Shown here one piece after another: positions 7,092 to 48,850 of a stretch of 64,000 nucleotides of DNA. Origin of the DNA: Paenibacillus borealis (lineage in GTDB: Bacteria; Bacillota; Bacilli; Paenibacillales; Paenibacillaceae). A model generated the notes under the pieces. It ran no database searches, had not been told where the DNA came from, and saw only the letters and a program-made list of their open reading frames with translations. A program made the translations under genes and the position numbers. The stretch covers positions 5,270,001 through 5,334,000 of the forward strand of contig NZ_CP009285.1 in assembly GCF_000758665.1 (NCBI RefSeq), in the 5' to 3' direction. The first letter of the stretch is position 1. Each line of letters starts with the position of its first letter.

Positions 7092-8648
7092 TCACGGGGT
7101 ATATTCGTACATATAATCCTGGTTGATAACCTGCTTCTCCTTGACCTCGGCGGGGAACATCGCTTCGGCCATCCGGATTGCTTTCAGCATGCCCCTGGCC
7201 TTGTTCAAGGTCTCTTCGTATTCCTTCTCAGGCACCGAGTCCCAGACAATACCCGCTCCGGCCTGCACATAAGCCCGGCCTTTGCGGAAGATGATGGTGC
7301 GGATTGTAATGCAGGAGTCCATATTCCCGGAGAAGCCAAGGTAACCTATAGCCCCGGCATAAGCTCCACGGGCTTCCTTTTCCAGCTCAGCGATGATCTC
7401 CATCGCCCGCAGCTTCGGCGCTCCGGATACGGTACCCGCCGGAAGGCAGGAGAGGAAGGCATCGAAGAAATCTTTATCGTCTGCCAGCGTTCCGGACACA
7501 TTCGAGACGATATGCATCACATGGGAGTATTTCTCGATTTCCATGAATGAATCGCATTTCACTGTGCCGAACTTTGATACACGGCCCAGGTCATTACGGC
7601 CCAGATCCACGAGCATCAGATGCTCCGCCCGCTCCTTCTCATCCTCCAGCAGTTCAGCGGCGAGCTGGCGGTCCTGCGCCTCTGTCTCTCCGCGCGGCCG
7701 GGTGCCGGCAATCGGCCGGGTCTCGACACGGCCGCTGCTGTCCACCTTGACCAGTGCTTCCGGCGAAGTGCCTACGATGATCTCTTCATCCATTTTCAGA
7801 TAATACATGTAAGGTGAAGGATTCAGCGTCCGCAGCATCCGGTACACATGCAGCGGGGATACCTCGGTCTCTATATGCAGCCGCTGGGACAGCACCACCT
7901 GGAAGATATCGCCGGCGCGGATATACTCTTTGGCCTGCTCCACATTGCTGATGTATTGTTCCTTGGTCAGGTTGGAGTGAATCTCACCCAGCTCAATGTC
8001 CTGCGGGATGCTGCGGCGGTTGACGTTCTCTTTCGGACCTTCCTTCTGCAGCTCTTCAGCCATATTCTCCAGGCGGCGGCTAAGTTCCTCATAACCTGCC
8101 CGGATATCGGAATCGGTATCTCCATCCTTGATATGCAGATTGCCCACCAGCAGAATCTGCTGCTTCACATGGTCGAAGACGATGATGCGGTCACAGAACA
8201 TGAAGCGGATATCATCCATATTGAGGTCATCTACGGCATGAGCGGACAATTTCTCGTAGTACTGCAGCAGATCATAGCCGAAGAATCCGATAGCGCCGCC
8301 CGTAAATGGCGGCATCCCGTCCAGCTTGGGACTGCGGTAGGAGCGAAGCAGCGCTTTAAGCTCCTCGACAGGTTTGCCCAGCAGCTGTTTTTTCTCACCG
8401 CCGACTTCAACGTGAATCAAGCCCTTTTTGCCTGAAATCATCAGGAACGGATCACTGCCGATAAAAGAATAGCGTGCCCATTGACTGCCGCCCTCTACAC
8501 TCTCCAGCAGGAATGCACGATCCTGCTCTGCGAAACGCTGGAACAAGCGGATTGGCGTTTCCATATCAGCCAGCAGCCTTTTCACGACCGGGATCAGATT
8601 GTACTCCCGCGACAGCGACACCACTTCTTCAATTCTCGGATTCGTCAC
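7092..8648 (-). CDS. trpE: Anthranilate synthase component I
   Basis: Converts chorismate plus ammonia to anthranilate. 518 aa. The N-terminal half carries the LLES feedback motif (FLLESVEGG, ~residue 47) that binds tryptophan in this family. The C-terminal chorismate-binding domain has PIAGTRPRG, DLGRNDLGRV and LPAGTVSGAPK. Start is GTG with AGGAGG eight bases upstream. No trpG glutaminase gene is in the operon; in Bacillus that subunit is the shared PabA, encoded elsewhere. First gene after the TRAP-regulated leader. Confidence 0.97.
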   Translation of the reverse strand: MTNPRIEEVVSLSREYNLIPVVKRLLADMETPIRLFQRFAEQDRAFLLESVEGGSQWARYSFIGSDPFLMISGKKGLIHVEVGGEKKQLLGKPVEELKALLRSYRSPKLDGMPPFTGGAIGFFGYDLLQYYEKLSAHAVDDLNMDDIRFMFCDRIIVFDHVKQQILLVGNLHIKDGDTDSDIRAGYEELSRRLENMAEELQKEGPKENVNRRSIPQDIELGEIHSNLTKEQYISNVEQAKEYIRAGDIFQVVLSQRLHIETEVSPLHVYRMLRTLNPSPYMYYLKMDEEIIVGTSPEALVKVDSSGRVETRPIAGTRPRGETEAQDRQLAAELLEDEKERAEHLMLVDLGRNDLGRVSKFGTVKCDSFMEIEKYSHVMHIVSNVSGTLADDKDFFDAFLSCLPAGTVSGAPKLRAMEIIAELEKEARGAYAGAIGYLGFSGNMDSCITIRTIIFRKGRAYVQAGAGIVWDSVPEKEYEETLNKARGMLKAIRMAEAMFPAEVKEKQVINQDYMYEYTP

Positions 8649-39749: not shown

Positions 39750-40013
39750 TCAAGCAAAACCGATGATGGAACAAAGATTACTGATGTCTTCAGAGAGCCG
39801 GTGGGTGGTGCAAACCGGTGGCAGACGGAAATCTTTAGCGCTCCTGAGATATTGTATTGAACCTTGAGTAGATACAATCGGATCACCTCCGTTACCAGTG
39901 TGGCCTTTGCAGGCCAATGAGGCTGCTTCTTAACCGTTGCAGTGAATTAGGGTGGTACCACGAGAACTCTCGTCCCTTACTACGGCAGTAGTATGGGGTA
40001 GGGAGTTTTTTTT
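39750..40013 (+). promoter_or_regulatory. T-box riboswitch (serine) upstream of serA
   Basis: The conserved T-box sequence AGGGTGGTACCACGAGAACT starts at 39949 and is followed by a terminator stem and T8 (to 40013). Upstream the GGAACAAAGA K-turn element and a stem I apical region (GAGAGCCGGTGGGTGG…) are present. The specifier region holds two Ser codons, AGC (39837-39839) and TCC (39842-39844); either fits a Ser-tRNA, which suits serA. Uncharged tRNA-Ser would allow readthrough. The rest of the gap to serA (40014-40219) holds no gene. Confidence 0.92.
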
Positions 40014-43105: not shown

Positions 43106-44356
43106 ATGGACTGGATGAACAAGCTGCCGTTAAAACAAAGAATCGTTGCCGGATGTTACCTGGTTGCCGCTTTATTCGCTGTCCCTGTGTTAATTACTCT
43201 GATCGTAATGGGAAAGGTAATTATCGGCATTATTCTTATTGCGGCATTGGCTGCGCTGACCTACCCGCTTGCGCGCTTTATTGAGAGAACGCTTACATCC
43301 TCGTTCGAGGACATCTCTAATGTGACGCATACGATCGCCAAAGGCGACTTCACCAGCCGTGCTGACGAGAATGGATCAATGGGCGACATCAGCCGCTCCT
43401 TCAACACCATGATTGATAAATTGAAGAAGATCCTGACCGATGTTTCACAGCTTACCCGCCAGGTTATGGATGCCAGCCGGGGGATCGAGGACAAGAATCA
43501 GAACCTGAAGATTGTAATGGCACAAGTAGCCTCCTCTTCCAATGAACTGGCCCTGGGCGCGAATGAAATCTCAGTAGATATCGCCGATATGACAGAATCG
43601 ATCAAAGATATCGAAACCAAAGTCTCCAATTATACGAACTCTACCAAAGAAATGAACAAACGCTCCGCCCATACGCTTGAACTGGTTGAACAGGGCCGCC
43701 AGTCTGTGGATACTCAAGCTGAAGGCATGCGGAAGAATATCCAGGCTACGCAAAAAGTAGCAGATACGATTGAGGCACTCTCACAGAATGCCCGCGGTAT
43801 TACCATGATCACCAAGACCATCACGGAAATTGCCGAACAGACCAACCTCTTGTCGCTTAATGCCTCCATCGAAGCTGCACGCGCAGGTGAGCATGGACGC
43901 GGATTTGCAGTTGTGGCCCAGGAGGTCCGTAAGCTAGCCGAAGAATCAACCGCTTCCACCAAAGAAGTATTCGGGCTGGTACGCAGTATCGAGGCCGACA
44001 TCAAGCAGGCTATCGATAACATCGCTATTAATGAAGAGGTTGTCCAGGTGCAGAACCAGATGATTACGGAGACCGCAAATATTTTCGCCCAAATCGTACA
44101 TAGTGTGCAATACATAACCGAGCAGATCTCCTCTTTCTCCGCAGAGAGTGATCTGATGCTGGAGAGCGCGCTCAAAATTTCCGGGGCGATTGAGAATATC
44201 TCCGCTATTACCCAGGAGACGGCCGCAGGTACTGAGGAGGTATCCGCAGCCATGAACGAACAGATCCATGCCTTGCAATCCGTCGCGGAAGAGACCGAGA
44301 AAATGACACAATCTGTCTTCCAGCTGCAAAAAACGATCCATATTTTCAAATTCTAG
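43106..44356 (+). CDS. Methyl-accepting chemotaxis protein without outside sensor
   Basis: 416 aa. Two hydrophobic segments come back to back (~14-35 and ~38-58), leaving no room for an extracellular domain. Then a HAMP-like linker (SFEDISNVTHTIAKGDFTSR) and a full signalling domain with the conserved hairpin tip EIAEQTNLLSLNASIEAARAGEHG. Substrate could be a cytosolic or membrane signal. SD GGGGGAA. CheR for methylation is at 12113-12916. Confidence 0.93.
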   Translation: MDWMNKLPLKQRIVAGCYLVAALFAVPVLITLIVMGKVIIGIILIAALAALTYPLARFIERTLTSSFEDISNVTHTIAKGDFTSRADENGSMGDISRSFNTMIDKLKKILTDVSQLTRQVMDASRGIEDKNQNLKIVMAQVASSSNELALGANEISVDIADMTESIKDIETKVSNYTNSTKEMNKRSAHTLELVEQGRQSVDTQAEGMRKNIQATQKVADTIEALSQNARGITMITKTITEIAEQTNLLSLNASIEAARAGEHGRGFAVVAQEVRKLAEESTASTKEVFGLVRSIEADIKQAIDNIAINEEVVQVQNQMITETANIFAQIVHSVQYITEQISSFSAESDLMLESALKISGAIENISAITQETAAGTEEVSAAMNEQIHALQSVAEETEKMTQSVFQLQKTIHIFKF

Positions 44357-44366
44357 CATCAGCCCT

Positions 44367-44411
44367 AAAAGACCGTTTCTGCAGATCAGTCTGCCGGAAC
44401 GGTCTCTTTTT
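44367..44411 (+). terminator. Terminator after the chemoreceptor gene
   Basis: AGACCGTT / AACGGTCT plus inner TCTGCAGA…TCTGC pairs, then CTTTTT. Confidence 0.85.
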
Positions 44412-44787
44412 GGAGAATATAATGTAATATTCACAAAGTGTTAAAATAGTGCATAACACTAAAAACTCACCTTTGCACTTCTTTACTGCTAACTCATAAT
44501 GACTAATAAATTGACACTATTTTAAATTTGAATTACCCATTTCTTAAGTCCCATTCCGCAGTTCTCCCAGCTTATATTTCTGTTACTTCCGCACTGTTTC
44601 TTGAAAAAACCAGGATTTTATGAGGCTTTAGACTTACTCAAATTAAATTCAACTCTTTTTTTGCATTTGCATTATAAGACTTTGGTCTTCCAGGCGCATC
44701 CATTTTCAAAAGTTTGAATATCTAATATTTCAGCTCTCTTCCCCTCTGAATATTCGCCAAATTTCGCGCTTTACTGCGAAAGACTTA
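44412..44787. other. AT-rich gene-free region
   Basis: About 376 nt, clearly richer in A+T than the neighbouring genes. I see no gene, long repeat or clear structure. It separates the chemoreceptor from the riboswitch-controlled cluster. Confidence 0.5.
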
Positions 44788-44815
44788 TTGACAAAAGGAG
44801 AGCGAGGAATATATT
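44788..44815 (+). promoter_or_regulatory. Promoter of the c-di-GMP riboswitch operon
   Basis: TTGACA (44788-44793), 16-bp spacer, TATATT (44810-44815). The predicted start near 44822 is about 30 nt before the aptamer. Confidence 0.7.
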
Positions 44816-44849
44816 GTAAAGGAAAATTATCCTTCCGTTATATTGATAA

Positions 44850-44955
44850 CAACATATGAGGCAAAATTCACCGAAAGGGAATGACGCAAAGCCATGGATC
44901 TACAGTCTCACTATTCTGGTGAGATCATGACAGCCAGGTTGCTGAAAAACTATGA
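44850..44955 (+). promoter_or_regulatory. c-di-GMP-I (GEMM-I) riboswitch aptamer
   Basis: The hallmarks follow in order: GAGGCAAAATTC, the GNRA-capped hairpin ATTC-ACCGAAAGG-GAAT, then GACGCAAAGCC (44884-44894), a variable hairpin (TCTCAC…GTGAGA), and ATGACAGCCAGGTTGCTGAAA (44928-44946 plus). These match the class-I c-di-GMP aptamer consensus, as in Vibrio Vc2. Downstream a CGTT-type hairpin (TGAACG…CGTTCA, 44953-44976) overlaps the 3' side of the closing stem, then comes a terminator at 45000. One aptamer only. ON or OFF cannot be told by eye. Confidence 0.92.
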
Positions 44956-44999
44956 ACGTCCGGGAACCCGCGTTCAGATATGGTGATTCGTGCGACAGG

Positions 45000-45030
45000 C
45001 CTGTGCTCCTATTTTGAGTACAGGTTTTCT
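45000..45030 (+). terminator. Riboswitch expression-platform terminator
   Basis: CCTGTGCTC (45000-45008) and GAGTACAGG (45016-45024) form a 9-bp stem with one G-U, loop of 7, then TTTTCT. It lies before the first gene and makes transcription attenuation likely. Confidence 0.82.
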
Positions 45031-45063
45031 ATTGCTAGCATATATCAAATAACAACTTGTGGG

Positions 45064-46707
45064 GTGGATGTTCTGAAGACAGTTGCAGATTATATGGCGG
45101 AAGCATTACACGATCTTGGGGTAACACATTCTTTTGGTATTATTGGTAAGTCCATTTGCCCTATTGCTCTCAAACTTGTTGACTACGGCATTGAGTTTAT
45201 TCCCAGTAGGCATGAGTCCAGCTCCGGTTTCGAAGCAGGCGGCTACGCACTGAAAACAGGCAGTCTCGGGGTAGCCTTCGGCACCTCCGGTCCAGGCGGA
45301 ACGAATCTGCTCACCGCAGCGGCACACGCCAAGGCCAACAATCTCCCGGTCCTCTTCATTACCGGTCATCAGTCCATTAAAGAGCTTGGGATTCCCCAGT
45401 GTCAGGATTCCACATCCTATCTTGCCGATTTGGCGGATATGTTCAGACCGGCAACTCTATTCAGTAAGCTTGTTGAACGGGGGGACCATTTCAGCACCAT
45501 TTTCAATCATGCCATATCTATCGCACTTGGTGACAAAAAAGGACCTGTCCATTTATGCATTCCGTTTGATGTTCAGACCGAGCGGCTTGAAGAATGCCGG
45601 ATTGTCCTGCCGCAGCGCGAAAAACTCGTCAGCTACGCGAACTACGACCGGGTCATTTCAGCTATCAATGCGTCCAGCAGACCACTGATCATTGCCGGCA
45701 AAGGCGTTAACCGCTCCGGTGCGCACAAGGAACTGGTTCAGTTAGCCGAGACCTTCAACATACCTGTGGTAACCTCACCTGGCGGCAAAGGAGCCATTGC
45801 ATCAGATCAACCGCTGTATCACGGTCCTGTAGGCGTTGGCGGATGCACGCACGGCGATGAATTAATGAATGATAGTGATTTGTTTATCGTACTTGGCTCA
45901 CGGCTAAGCGATATGACCATATGCAATCTTAAGCGTGAGAATCATCCGGAGCAGTTAATCCAGTTTGATGTTGATCCTACCTTCGTCGGTAAAATCCTAA
46001 CTTCCTCCACCATCTCTGTCGGCGGTGATTTGCGGGATAATCTGGAGCTGTATCTCGAAAAAATCGATCATTCTGCTATTACCAGACATGAAAGAAAGAT
46101 CTTCAATTCCTATACTGAAGAGCTGCCTCTGTTGCCCAAACTCTCTCTGGCTTCGGTAATGAGCACGATGAGCGATTTGATTCCTTACAACAGCAGTGTG
46201 TTTGTAGATGACGGCAGCCACGGCTTCAATGCGGTCAAATGGTTCAATGTGAAGAAACCGGGCAGCTTTATATTTGATGCTTACTTTGCCTGCATGGGTA
46301 ATTCAATCGGTATGGCTATCGGCGCCAAGGCTGCTTCCCCGGAAGAGACTATCTTCTGCATCACCGGTGACGGCTGCTTCATGATGCTCGGTACTGAAAT
46401 AAACACTGCGGTTTGCAAGAATATCCCGGTCATTTTCATTGTGGTGAATAATATGCAGCTGGATATGGCACTCAAGGGTATGGAAAAAACAACCGGCCGG
46501 ATCGATGGAACCATCTTCGAAGTTCCTATGGATGCCGTAAAGTTTGCTGAATCCCTGGGGGCCGCCGGCTTCCGTGCGGAGACGCAGGAGGAGTTTGCTG
46601 CCGCAATCAGCCAGGCTGTTGAACTTAACCGCGTTGCCGTCATTGAACTGTTGACCGACCGTGATGAAATGCCTCCTACTGCCCACCGTACACTGGATCT
46701 CAATTAG
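45064..46707 (+). CDS. Thiamine-diphosphate enzyme, acetolactate-synthase family
   Basis: ~547 aa with the three-domain layout of the ALS/benzoylformate-decarboxylase family. The activating Glu is in SRHESSSGFEAGGYA (near residue 50), and ThDP/Mg binding is GDGCFMM … VVNNMQ (near 440-465). It differs from true AHAS in the quinone/FAD regions as far as I can judge, so substrate and product are open (decarboxylase, carboligase or hydrolase). Start is uncertain: GTG 45064 lies in GGGGTGG without a good SD. The frame runs back to 44980 but through the terminator, so that is rejected. First gene of the riboswitch cluster. Confidence 0.88.
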   Translation: MDVLKTVADYMAEALHDLGVTHSFGIIGKSICPIALKLVDYGIEFIPSRHESSSGFEAGGYALKTGSLGVAFGTSGPGGTNLLTAAAHAKANNLPVLFITGHQSIKELGIPQCQDSTSYLADLADMFRPATLFSKLVERGDHFSTIFNHAISIALGDKKGPVHLCIPFDVQTERLEECRIVLPQREKLVSYANYDRVISAINASSRPLIIAGKGVNRSGAHKELVQLAETFNIPVVTSPGGKGAIASDQPLYHGPVGVGGCTHGDELMNDSDLFIVLGSRLSDMTICNLKRENHPEQLIQFDVDPTFVGKILTSSTISVGGDLRDNLELYLEKIDHSAITRHERKIFNSYTEELPLLPKLSLASVMSTMSDLIPYNSSVFVDDGSHGFNAVKWFNVKKPGSFIFDAYFACMGNSIGMAIGAKAASPEETIFCITGDGCFMMLGTEINTAVCKNIPVIFIVVNNMQLDMALKGMEKTTGRIDGTIFEVPMDAVKFAESLGAAGFRAETQEEFAAAISQAVELNRVAVIELLTDRDEMPPTAHRTLDLN

Positions 46708-46752
46708 ACTGTATCTTACAGATTTTCTAACTTACTATCAGGAGGCAAACAA

Positions 46753-47121
46753 GTGAATATGAACGTAGACAGCGGACTGGACCATTTCACCAATCTTTCC
46801 GGGGACTATGGGGCCAAAGCCCTAGCTCCCATTAAAGAGCATTTTCCCGAATTAGCCGAGTATATCATGGGCAACGCATACGGTGATATTTTTCAGCGGA
46901 CCACCATCGGTTCAGACTGGAAAGAAATTGCTGTCATCTCTTCTTTGATCACCATGGGACAATTTGAGCAGTTGGGGGTTCACTATGTAATGGCACTCCG
47001 CGTGGGGATGACCGTTGATCAAATTAAAGGTATCCTGCTTCATCTGACACCTTGCATCGGCGCACCCAGAGTGATCTCGGCATTCAATGTTCTGCTGGAG
47101 ACGCTGGAAGAAATTCGTTAA
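46753..47121 (+). CDS. Carboxymuconolactone-decarboxylase-like protein
   Basis: 122 aa, helical. The C-terminal half (EIAVISSLITMGQFEQLGVHYVMALRVGMTVDQIKGILLH…GAPR) is the CMD fold, with the conserved His in GVHYVMAL and the HLTPCIGAPR end. The AhpD-type CxxC pair is missing, so it is not a peroxidase of that kind. GTG start with GGAGG at 7 nt. It follows the ThDP enzyme by 45 nt and is probably co-transcribed. Substrate unknown. Confidence 0.85.
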   Translation: MNMNVDSGLDHFTNLSGDYGAKALAPIKEHFPELAEYIMGNAYGDIFQRTTIGSDWKEIAVISSLITMGQFEQLGVHYVMALRVGMTVDQIKGILLHLTPCIGAPRVISAFNVLLETLEEIR

Positions 47122-47156
47122 GTAACAACAAAATATTACATCATTCGACTTTTGTA

Positions 47157-47186
47157 TTGCGCATTTAAGAAATATCTGGTTATAAT
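47157..47186 (+). promoter_or_regulatory. Internal promoter before the STAS-like gene
   Basis: TTGCGC (47157-47162), 18-bp spacer, perfect TATAAT (47181-47186). It would allow the last two genes to escape the riboswitch. Confidence 0.55.
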
Positions 47187-47195
47187 GAAGGCAAA

Positions 47196-47257
47196 ATATC
47201 CCAAAACCAAGTTCATATTGTCGAATCTAGTCGCATGAACGTAGTTTTTCGGGATAT
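47196..47257 (+). ncRNA. Structured leader, long hairpin of unknown class
   Basis: ATATCCC pairs with GGGATAT, AAAAC with GTTTT and GTTCAT with ATGAAC, with a symmetric 3x3 internal loop (CAA/GTA) and an 18-nt loop (47217-47234). No T run follows, so it is not a terminator. It starts about 10 nt after the predicted promoter, ~64 nt before the STAS-like start. The class is not one I recognise. Confidence 0.55.
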
Positions 47258-47320
47258 CAACATGATGAAATATCAGATTACTCTGAATAGTCATGCAATT
47301 AAATTACGGGAGAGATGAAC

Positions 47321-47671
47321 ATGGGACAATTTATTTTGAAGACAGACACTGCGAAGAAAGTAATTAACATCGAGCTGGAAGGAACCTTCTCGAACGAGGA
47401 CGGTCTTAAATCCATACAGGCCTATCAGCAAACCATCAATCCGATTAATCCTTCTGAATATGCACTGGATATCGATTGCCGCAAGCTCAATGTAACCGCT
47501 CCTGATGTTGTGCCGTTGCTCGAAGGCTGCTTCATCATGTTCAAGGCCGACGGCTTCCAAAAAGTGAGCCTGACCCTTGAGAATAACCCTATTCTCAAAA
47601 TGCAGCTGGCGCGTCTGGGCCGCAAAGCTGGACTCGAAAACCTGGAAATCACGTCTACGGTACAAGCTTAG
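47321..47671 (+). CDS. Small STAS-like protein
   Basis: 116 aa. The pattern of strands and helices (VINIELEGTF; DGLKSIQAYQQTIN; YALDIDCRKLN; VVPLLEGCFIMFKADGFQKV; LTLENNPILKMQLARLG) resembles the SpoIIAA/STAS fold, but no phospho-Ser motif (DxSxxxS) is obvious. The assignment is by shape, not by a known family. ATG at 47321 has GGGAGAG six bases upstream; the ATG two codons earlier is too close. Between the CMD-like gene and the KASIII-like gene. Confidence 0.62.
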   Translation: MGQFILKTDTAKKVINIELEGTFSNEDGLKSIQAYQQTINPINPSEYALDIDCRKLNVTAPDVVPLLEGCFIMFKADGFQKVSLTLENNPILKMQLARLGRKAGLENLEITSTVQA

Positions 47672-47772
47672 GTTAACTTATTTTTAAACCATTATTAGCG
47701 GTTTGAAACGCAAAATTCGCTCACGAAACCAAGTGTATGCTTACGGGCTACAAAACTTTTAGGAGGTTCACT

Positions 47773-48765
47773 ATGGCAGGGATTCGCATTAAGGACATTG
47801 ATATCTATCATCCAAGCAAAAGCATCGGCAATGACTTCTTCATTCAGCACTTCGATGAGAAGGGAATTGATATCCGTGGCCTGCTGGCTGCTCTAGGCCG
47901 TGAAAACCGCTACAGTATCGACAGCAAGGATGAGAACTCCCTGACGATGGCTTTTGAAGCCGCAAGCAATGTACTGGACAAGACCGGCCTGACCGGCGCA
48001 GACATTGACCTGATCGCTTATGCAAGCCAGACTCCTGAATACATTTTCCCAACGAATTCATTGATGATTCACCGCCTGATTAATGGCGCATCCCACACGA
48101 TCTGTATCGACAGTAATGCCAACTGTGCAGGAATGACCGCTTCCATGGAACAGGTCAGCCGCCAGATGATGGCGAACCCGAGAATCCGCCGTGCACTTGT
48201 TATCGGCTCTGACTACGTTGCCCCGCATGCCAACAAGAATGACCCGGTATATTACGCCAACTTCGGCGATGCTGCTGCCGCACTTATTCTGGAGCGTGAC
48301 GAGAATTCTGTAGGTTTCATTGATTCGATCTATCAGACTGATACCTGCGTCTACGGCAACTCGCTGTTCCCGGCGGAAGGTTTAGCTAATCTCGGACGTA
48401 CAGGTGTGGCTGCCGGAGAGTTCAATGTCAAGTTCATTCCATTCGATGATTCTATCTGCGTGGATGCTGCTTCAGAATCGATCATCACACTGCTGAGCAA
48501 TAACGGAATCGCACCTGAATCCATCAAGGCTGCCTGCTTCTCGCAGCTGTCACTTCCGAACATCAAGGCTGTTGCCGGCAAAACCGGAATTGACTCTGAT
48601 GCAGCCGTCTACATCGGTGATGAATTCGGCTACACCTCTACCAGCAGCCCGTTTATCGCGCTGCACAAGGCAGTGACTACTGGAAAGCTCGAACGCGGAG
48701 ACAAGGTCCTGTTCTGGACCGTAGGCGCCGGATGGCAGAATGTCGCTTTTGTAATGGAGTATTAA
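47773..48765 (+). CDS. KASIII-like thiolase-fold protein lacking the His-Asn pair
   Basis: 330 aa, FabH/HMG-CoA-synthase superfamily. The active-site Cys is kept (NANCAGMTASM, Cys118). Where FabH has its catalytic His (HQAN) this has FSQLS (Ser257), and where FabH has Asn (GNTS) it has FGYTST (Tyr287). So it should bind or transfer acyl chains but not carry out normal decarboxylative chain extension. SD AGGAGGTTCACT, ATG at 47773; the longer frame from 47737 is not used. Last gene of the cluster; a bidirectional terminator follows. Confidence 0.88.
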   Translation: MAGIRIKDIDIYHPSKSIGNDFFIQHFDEKGIDIRGLLAALGRENRYSIDSKDENSLTMAFEAASNVLDKTGLTGADIDLIAYASQTPEYIFPTNSLMIHRLINGASHTICIDSNANCAGMTASMEQVSRQMMANPRIRRALVIGSDYVAPHANKNDPVYYANFGDAAAALILERDENSVGFIDSIYQTDTCVYGNSLFPAEGLANLGRTGVAAGEFNVKFIPFDDSICVDAASESIITLLSNNGIAPESIKAACFSQLSLPNIKAVAGKTGIDSDAAVYIGDEFGYTSTSSPFIALHKAVTTGKLERGDKVLFWTVGAGWQNVAFVMEY

Positions 48766-48800
48766 TCTTACCAGTTGAACTTGTACTTTCATGTGCATAT

Positions 48801-48841
48801 CAAAACAGCCCGCAGCAGATTTTCTGCCAGCGGGCTGTTTT
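48801..48841. terminator. Bidirectional terminator between the KASIII-like gene and glpK
   Basis: CAAAACAGCCCGC / GCGGGCTGTTTTG-type stem of ~12 bp, A run before and T run after, closing the plus-strand cluster and the minus-strand glpK. Confidence 0.9.
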
Positions 48842-48850
48842 GATATGTAG

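Follow-up and report, generated by a model that had tools for sequence, protein, structure and literature searches.

The c-di-GMP-I riboswitch and the operon behind it

In Paenibacillus borealis, whose genome is a single contig of 8.16 Mb, a cyclic di-GMP (c-di-GMP)-I riboswitch of the GEMM-I class precedes four plus-strand genes at positions 44,788 to 48,841 of the 64,000-nucleotide stretch of DNA analyzed here (the window). The genes encode a thiamine diphosphate (ThDP)-dependent enzyme, a protein resembling carboxymuconolactone decarboxylase (CMD-like), a STAS-like orphan protein, and a protein resembling beta-ketoacyl-acyl carrier protein synthase III (KASIII-like; KAS for the family). The presence of a riboswitch ahead of the operon is well supported by the sequence, and the promoter, aptamer, terminator hairpin, four genes, and common closing terminator all lie where a first-pass annotation had placed them:

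44788..44815, plus strand: promoter with -35 TTGACA, 16 nucleotides, and -10 TATATT (pattern scan, leader comparison)
44850..44946, plus strand: c-di-GMP-I (GEMM-I) aptamer (RF01051)
45000..45033, plus strand: terminator-type hairpin (45000-45024) with a T-rich tail (folding, leader comparison)
45073..46707, plus strand: ThDP-dependent enzyme, likely CTG start, open frame from 44980 (Pfam TPP_enzyme N, M, and C)
46753..47121, plus strand: CMD/PcaC-like protein, 122 amino acids, one Cys, no CxxC (PF02627)
47321..47671, plus strand: STAS-like orphan protein, 116 amino acids, or 118 from 47315 (conserved family A2)
47773..48765, plus strand: KASIII-like protein, 330 amino acids, with Cys118, Ser257, and Tyr287 (PF08541, PF08545)
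48797..48846, both strands: hairpin terminator common to the operon and a convergent glycerol-kinase-like gene (folding)

The aptamer matches RF01051 with 64.7 bits (gathering score, 35; E value, 2.2e-10), and an alignment of ten sequences shows compensatory changes in 4 of its 23 predicted pairs. The leader hairpin is followed by TTTTCTATT and has a folding energy of -17.6 kcal/mol, with a z score of -3.8 for 44990-45035; it is missing from the pattern scanner's list of terminators, and its 3' arm with UUUU is present in all 24 distinct leaders. Promoter-like patterns are no more frequent in the region than expected by chance (9 seen, 7.3 expected), and TTGACA stands at the same spacing in every one of the 25 leaders compared, from 32 available type A leaders. 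Comparison of the homologous place in 27 leaders, which carry CTG (10), TTG (15), or GTG (2) after a G-rich ribosome site, points to the CTG at 45073 as the probable start of the ThDP gene; in the P. amylolyticus group this place is mostly occupied by ATG or GTG.

Relatives of the operon proteins among named organisms come mostly from Paenibacillus, and the same gene order is kept in relatives. We scanned 80 named loci (1.3 Mb) with a covariance model built from 16 GEMM-I sequences; these loci are the best 80 of 227 when ranked by likeness to the KAS of Xenorhabdus bovienii and are therefore an uneven sample, and since all of the organisms are related, they are not independent trials. The scan gave 27 matches, one per locus, all on the operon strand and all ahead of the operon. 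GEMM-I heads the operon in all 18 loci whose ThDP enzyme is at least 82% identical to that of the window. Among 16 loci of a divergent type, nine carry it in front of a chemoreceptor gene; two of the 16 (L062 and L064) end at a contig edge and are still counted. The model found no GEMM-I in the four gammaproteobacterial loci or in the 16 loci with KAS but no such ThDP enzyme. These counts are not independent of the model, because three of the 27 matches (L063, L121, and L122) evidently are training contigs (L051, L049, or L042) and the close-type matches resemble training sequences. One locus, L081, was overlooked by the leader search pattern yet matched by the model, and an Rfam re-search of five divergent loci (L065 and L073-L076) gave nothing above the gathering score. 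A set of 30 loci gave 14 matches, of which ten were known before and four (L155-L158) were new. Overall, the conserved co-occurrence in related genomes on which the first-pass annotation had made its proposal depend is present.

The P. borealis genome holds eight GEMM-I sites (L001-L008), two of them in tandem (L002 and L003), and the frames behind several of them resemble secreted or surface proteins by eye, those behind L004 and L001 being ambiguous.

An enzymatic core probably related to xenocyloin biosynthesis

The KASIII-like label of the first-pass annotation is borne out by PF08541 and PF08545. Like FabH, the protein belongs to a thiolase-type family and keeps the active-site Cys; unlike FabH, whose catalytic triad is Cys-His-Asn, it aligns Cys118 with Cys, Ser257 with His, and Tyr287 with Asn of the FabH chains. 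All three residues are invariant in 79 of 79 sequences, as is the NxNCxG motif around Cys118 (the set omits L119 and L124, in which the gene is split over two frames). Replacement of His and Asn throughout the family argues against decarboxylative condensation, and the protein scores only 109 against the FabH model, far below the cut-off of 292, with no Cys-His-Asn triad.

The ThDP label is likewise upheld by three TPP_enzyme Pfam domains, and the window enzyme retains the Glu and GDG...NN motifs. The ScyA-related model is not among the 25 best NCBIfam models listed for it, and its nearest solved ThDP proteins are BbmA and CsmA, on which we found no paper in the open-access literature. A reading of BbmA in terms of bacillimidazole/discolin chemistry was dropped, DisA being an amino acid decarboxylase in that literature. 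Our ThDP tree, which has one outgroup and two uninformative fragments (L108 and L119), gives separate deep branches and not their branching order. One stop codon was flagged in the ThDP genes of G074 and G110; no stop lies in the aligned part, and we do not count these genes as broken. For the second gene product, membership in the CMD superfamily is confirmed by PF02627 (38.8 bits; cut-off, 23), and the score against the PcaC equivalog is below its cut-off (40 of 155.7 bits).

The name STAS-like fared less well, no curated Pfam or NCBIfam model reaching its cut-off with the window protein. Pfam STAS matched 2 of 27 family members (best E value, 0.1), hhalign against five STAS domains from the same genome gave a colinear match of 97 columns with an E value of 0.002 and a probability of only 13.9, and a PDB profile search returned nothing better than an E value of 0.37. 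A profile made from the 27 members matched 93 of 100 loci, a figure that includes repeat genomes and its own training members; it had no match in L058, L078, L087, and the four gammaproteobacterial loci. Of 398 sampled genomes of the phylum, seven carry the protein, six of these in the same family. In P. caui, a second STAS-like gene lies directly 3' of KAS (L070, 9218-9568).

Among the closest described systems is xenocyloin biosynthesis (xcl) in X. bovienii, reportedly described by Proschak et al. in 2014. The X. bovienii KAS homologue (P0086) is 47% identical to the window KAS and has the same Cys/Ser/Tyr pattern. In X. bovienii, X. vietnamensis, and Pectobacterium, the KAS homologue is preceded by genes for a ThDP enzyme and a further ketosynthase, and in X. 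bovienii the best NCBIfam match of the ThDP enzyme is ScyA-related, with 467 bits, under the model cut-off of 1000. In both X. vietnamensis loci found (L119 and L124), the KAS gene is divided between two reading frames at about 8441-8504. The KAS-ThDP locus of X. bovienii is probably the xcl locus. If so, xcl and the window share a KAS of the same family beside a ThDP gene; they differ in that the Xenorhabdus ThDP enzyme is ScyA-related whereas that of the window is not, and in that Xenorhabdus has a second ketosynthase where Bacillota carry the STAS-like gene. The Xenorhabdus locus yielded neither a CMD gene nor a GEMM-I, and a weak second KAS match occurs in L059, L060, L119, and L124 only.

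In the cited papers, X. bovienii is named as a xenocyloin producer (PMC6305712), ester bond formation is ascribed to the condensation-like enzymes XclB/XclC (PMC4425429), the xenocyloin ketosynthases are cited as acylating (PMC4578411), and CerJ, Pau29, and XclB/XclC are grouped as ester-forming KAS-like proteins (PMC4425429, PMC4578411), KAS-like as the window protein is. ScyA is described as joining two 2-keto acids into a labile beta-keto acid, which ScyC cyclizes and decarboxylates (PMC4870267, PMC9822442). Carboligation of two 2-keto acids followed by decarboxylation is also the logic that we propose for the window operon, although its ThDP enzyme lies outside the ScyA family.

Operon types, gene modules, and neighbors

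Loci of the divergent type, among them those of Cohnella, P. macerans, P. oralis, and P. caui, begin with genes for a chemoreceptor and a GAF protein, followed by ThDP, STAS-like, and KAS genes (Pfam assignments here cover the proteins of L063 and the chemoreceptor of L061), and the nine GEMM-I matches sit 0.1 to 0.3 kb 5' of the chemoreceptor gene. Identity to the window proteins is 26 to 30% for ThDP, 44 to 58% for STAS-like, and 46 to 55% for KAS, and CsmA is the closest PDB entry to the divergent ThDP enzyme (393 bits). The riboswitch thus goes with two forms of the operon and is placed differently in each.

A survey of 245 genomes of the family (E value cut-offs, 1e-30 for KAS, 1e-150 for type A ThDP, and 1e-6 for STAS-like) found KAS in 92, type A ThDP in 52, and the STAS-like protein in 90. 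Of the 52 type A ThDP genomes, 44 have a KAS gene of 78% identity or more no farther than 4 kb from the ThDP gene, and none of these 44 KAS genes occurs without type A ThDP. Among the eight others, L155-L157 retain GEMM-I, ThDP, CMD, and STAS-like genes with no KAS at the locus; L158 retains GEMM-I, ThDP, and CMD; L159-L161 retain ThDP and CMD with no GEMM-I match; and L162 has ThDP and CMD in another setting. Conversely, L125-L138, which span Oceanobacillus, Robertmurraya, Gottfriedia, Ornithinibacillus, Neobacillus, and some Paenibacillus, hold the STAS-KAS pair without this ThDP or CMD gene. Remnants of KAS and ThDP are left in L163, and a chemoreceptor gene and an interrupted STAS-like gene in L164. 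From these patterns of loss, ThDP-CMD and STAS-KAS look like two modules, with the riboswitch accompanying ThDP-CMD.

Upstream of the window operon lies one further gene of the same strand:

43106..44356, plus strand: chemoreceptor with HAMP and MCPsignal domains (Pfam), with its own hairpin terminator at 44365-44416

The chemoreceptor is an operon member in the divergent type only. On the other side, the terminator at 48797-48846 has a z score of about -10 on each strand, and the convergent gene beyond it encodes an FGGY kinase (glycerol kinase by eye). In the P. amylolyticus/P. pabuli group, another chemoreceptor-like gene (572 amino acids) lies upstream on the same strand (locus positions about 2.1 to 4.8 kb in L083, L096, and L112); in L083 and L096, an oppositely oriented gene stands between it and the ThDP gene. 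Elsewhere in the window, a T-box leader (39754-39980; 105.8 bits) precedes an open frame of 530 amino acids that resembles SerA by eye.

What the operon may make, and how c-di-GMP may control it

Our tentative reading, to which we give slightly less than an even chance, is that c-di-GMP controls an operon producing a small metabolite derived from an acyloin; its product, the acylation, and the direction of the switch are inferred. Like ScyA, the ThDP enzyme would join a pair of 2-keto acids into an unstable beta-keto acid, and the CMD-like protein would decarboxylate this to an acyloin, the weakest of the enzyme steps. KAS would load an acyl group on Cys118 and, with its STAS-like partner, might pass it to the acyloin hydroxyl with no new carbon-carbon bond, as cited for XclB/XclC. 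The operon would then combine a xenocyloin-like enzymatic core with a ThDP enzyme of a different lineage and an unnamed partner under a c-di-GMP riboswitch, an interpretation that the analysis supports in part. The earlier guess of an acyloin or acyl-ester product gains strength from a KAS homologue with 47% identity beside a ScyA-related ThDP enzyme in a xenocyloin producer, and from citations of XclB/XclC as ester forming. The first-pass annotation had also held that no such system was described: a search of the open-access literature yielded no description of a GEMM-I operon with this gene set, but that claim holds only in part, since the enzymatic core already has a described relative in xcl.

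Several observations weigh against this reading. The window and Xenorhabdus ThDP enzymes are only 24% identical, and a second, XclB-like ketosynthase is absent from the genes of the window operon. Eight genomes retain type A ThDP without KAS at the locus, which speaks against a tight link, and in seven of the eight (all except G062) the STAS-KAS pair is found elsewhere in the genome. The covariance model found GEMM-I in none of the 26 P. amylolyticus/P. pabuli-group loci (ThDP, 72 to 74% identical), all of which retain the four genes, and this too argues against a tight link between riboswitch and operon. Finally, the best NCBIfam model of the window ThDP enzyme is acetolactate synthase.

This last point leads to the most serious alternative for the chemistry, an acetoin-type pathway with the ThDP enzyme as a divergent acetolactate synthase, the CMD-like protein in place of acetolactate decarboxylase, and STAS-KAS separate and merely cotranscribed. 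In its favor, the only other match of the window ThDP enzyme in its own genome at an E value of 1e-15 or below resembles IlvB (30%; named by eye), and L158-L162 have ThDP-CMD but no STAS-KAS at the locus. Nevertheless, every acetolactate synthase model stays far under its cut-off (288.6 bits of 538.35 for the best; 215.9 of 551.1 for AlsS), and two other ThDP lineages adjoin the same KAS family, a sign that ThDP and KAS may be functionally linked. We regard an acetoin-type pathway as unlikely, at something like one chance in five. Somewhat less probable still is that KAS and the STAS-like protein form a noncatalytic binding or regulatory pair, a pseudoenzyme module: two of the three FabH catalytic residues are replaced in all 79 sequences and L125-L138 have the pair but not the ThDP and CMD genes. 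Against this, Cys118 and NxNCxG are kept in every sequence, and XclB/XclC are cited as ester forming.

How c-di-GMP acts on the acyloin operon that we favor depends on the leader. The 3' strand of the aptamer, CAGGTTGC, is able to pair with the region of the terminator 5' arm. In transcripts that end before the terminator 3' arm, folded without ligand, this alternative pairing exceeds aptamer pairing in 19 of 20 usable leaders (L042, L079, L080, and L086 were left out of the count, a loop CCUG having been mistaken for the 5' arm), and in the window leader the values are 0.75 and 0.0. By stabilizing the aptamer, c-di-GMP would hold a 3' strand that, when free, would pair with the terminator 5' arm, so termination would be favored. 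The folding models therefore make it reasonably probable that c-di-GMP switches the operon off rather than on. Three results tell against this direction: full-length leaders form the terminator at 0.99 or more without ligand in all 20 usable cases, the terminator sometimes coexists with the alternative pairing in full-length leaders (for example, L082), and only 11 of 20 leaders have the proposed pairing site as their best duplex window, the window leader not among them. The OFF model is therefore weak.

The converse, that c-di-GMP switches the same operon on and that aptamer folding blocks the terminator by another route, is about half as probable. In its favor, full-length leaders folded without ligand form the terminator almost completely, and the secreted or surface-like proteins that follow other GEMM-I sites in the genome, as judged by eye, would fit a state of high c-di-GMP. 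Against it, the pairing able to restrain the terminator uses the aptamer's own 3' strand in 19 of 20 leaders, which is the usual OFF layout. In its aptamer, terminator platform, and single promoter, the leader resembles c-di-GMP-I riboswitch operons in general.

It is improbable that the product is a signal read by the neighboring chemoreceptor: in the divergent type, the receptor gene directly follows the riboswitch in nine of nine GEMM-I loci, with a GAF protein between receptor and ThDP gene where looked at, but in the window the receptor precedes the riboswitch and has its own terminator, and a dedicated receptor was set aside as the best reading since the gene is retained where the cluster is almost lost (L164). 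Equally speculative is the larger picture in which c-di-GMP directly gates a diffusible acyloin ester that serves as a population-level cue, sensed by the neighboring chemoreceptor and, in the divergent type, by this receptor together with the GAF protein, and in which XclB/XclC are replaced by a new acyltransferase made of two proteins, the STAS-like one and the Cys-only KAS.

If the preferred reading of a c-di-GMP-controlled acyloin operon is true, c-di-GMP switches a specialized small-molecule pathway in Paenibacillaceae through RNA alone, and, the arrangement being kept in many relatives, a lifestyle signal may directly control a metabolite. An unannotated STAS-like family and a KASIII family that lacks two of its three catalytic residues travel together in Bacillota, and the tie between this KAS family and a probable xenocyloin ketosynthase makes the functions of both directly testable.

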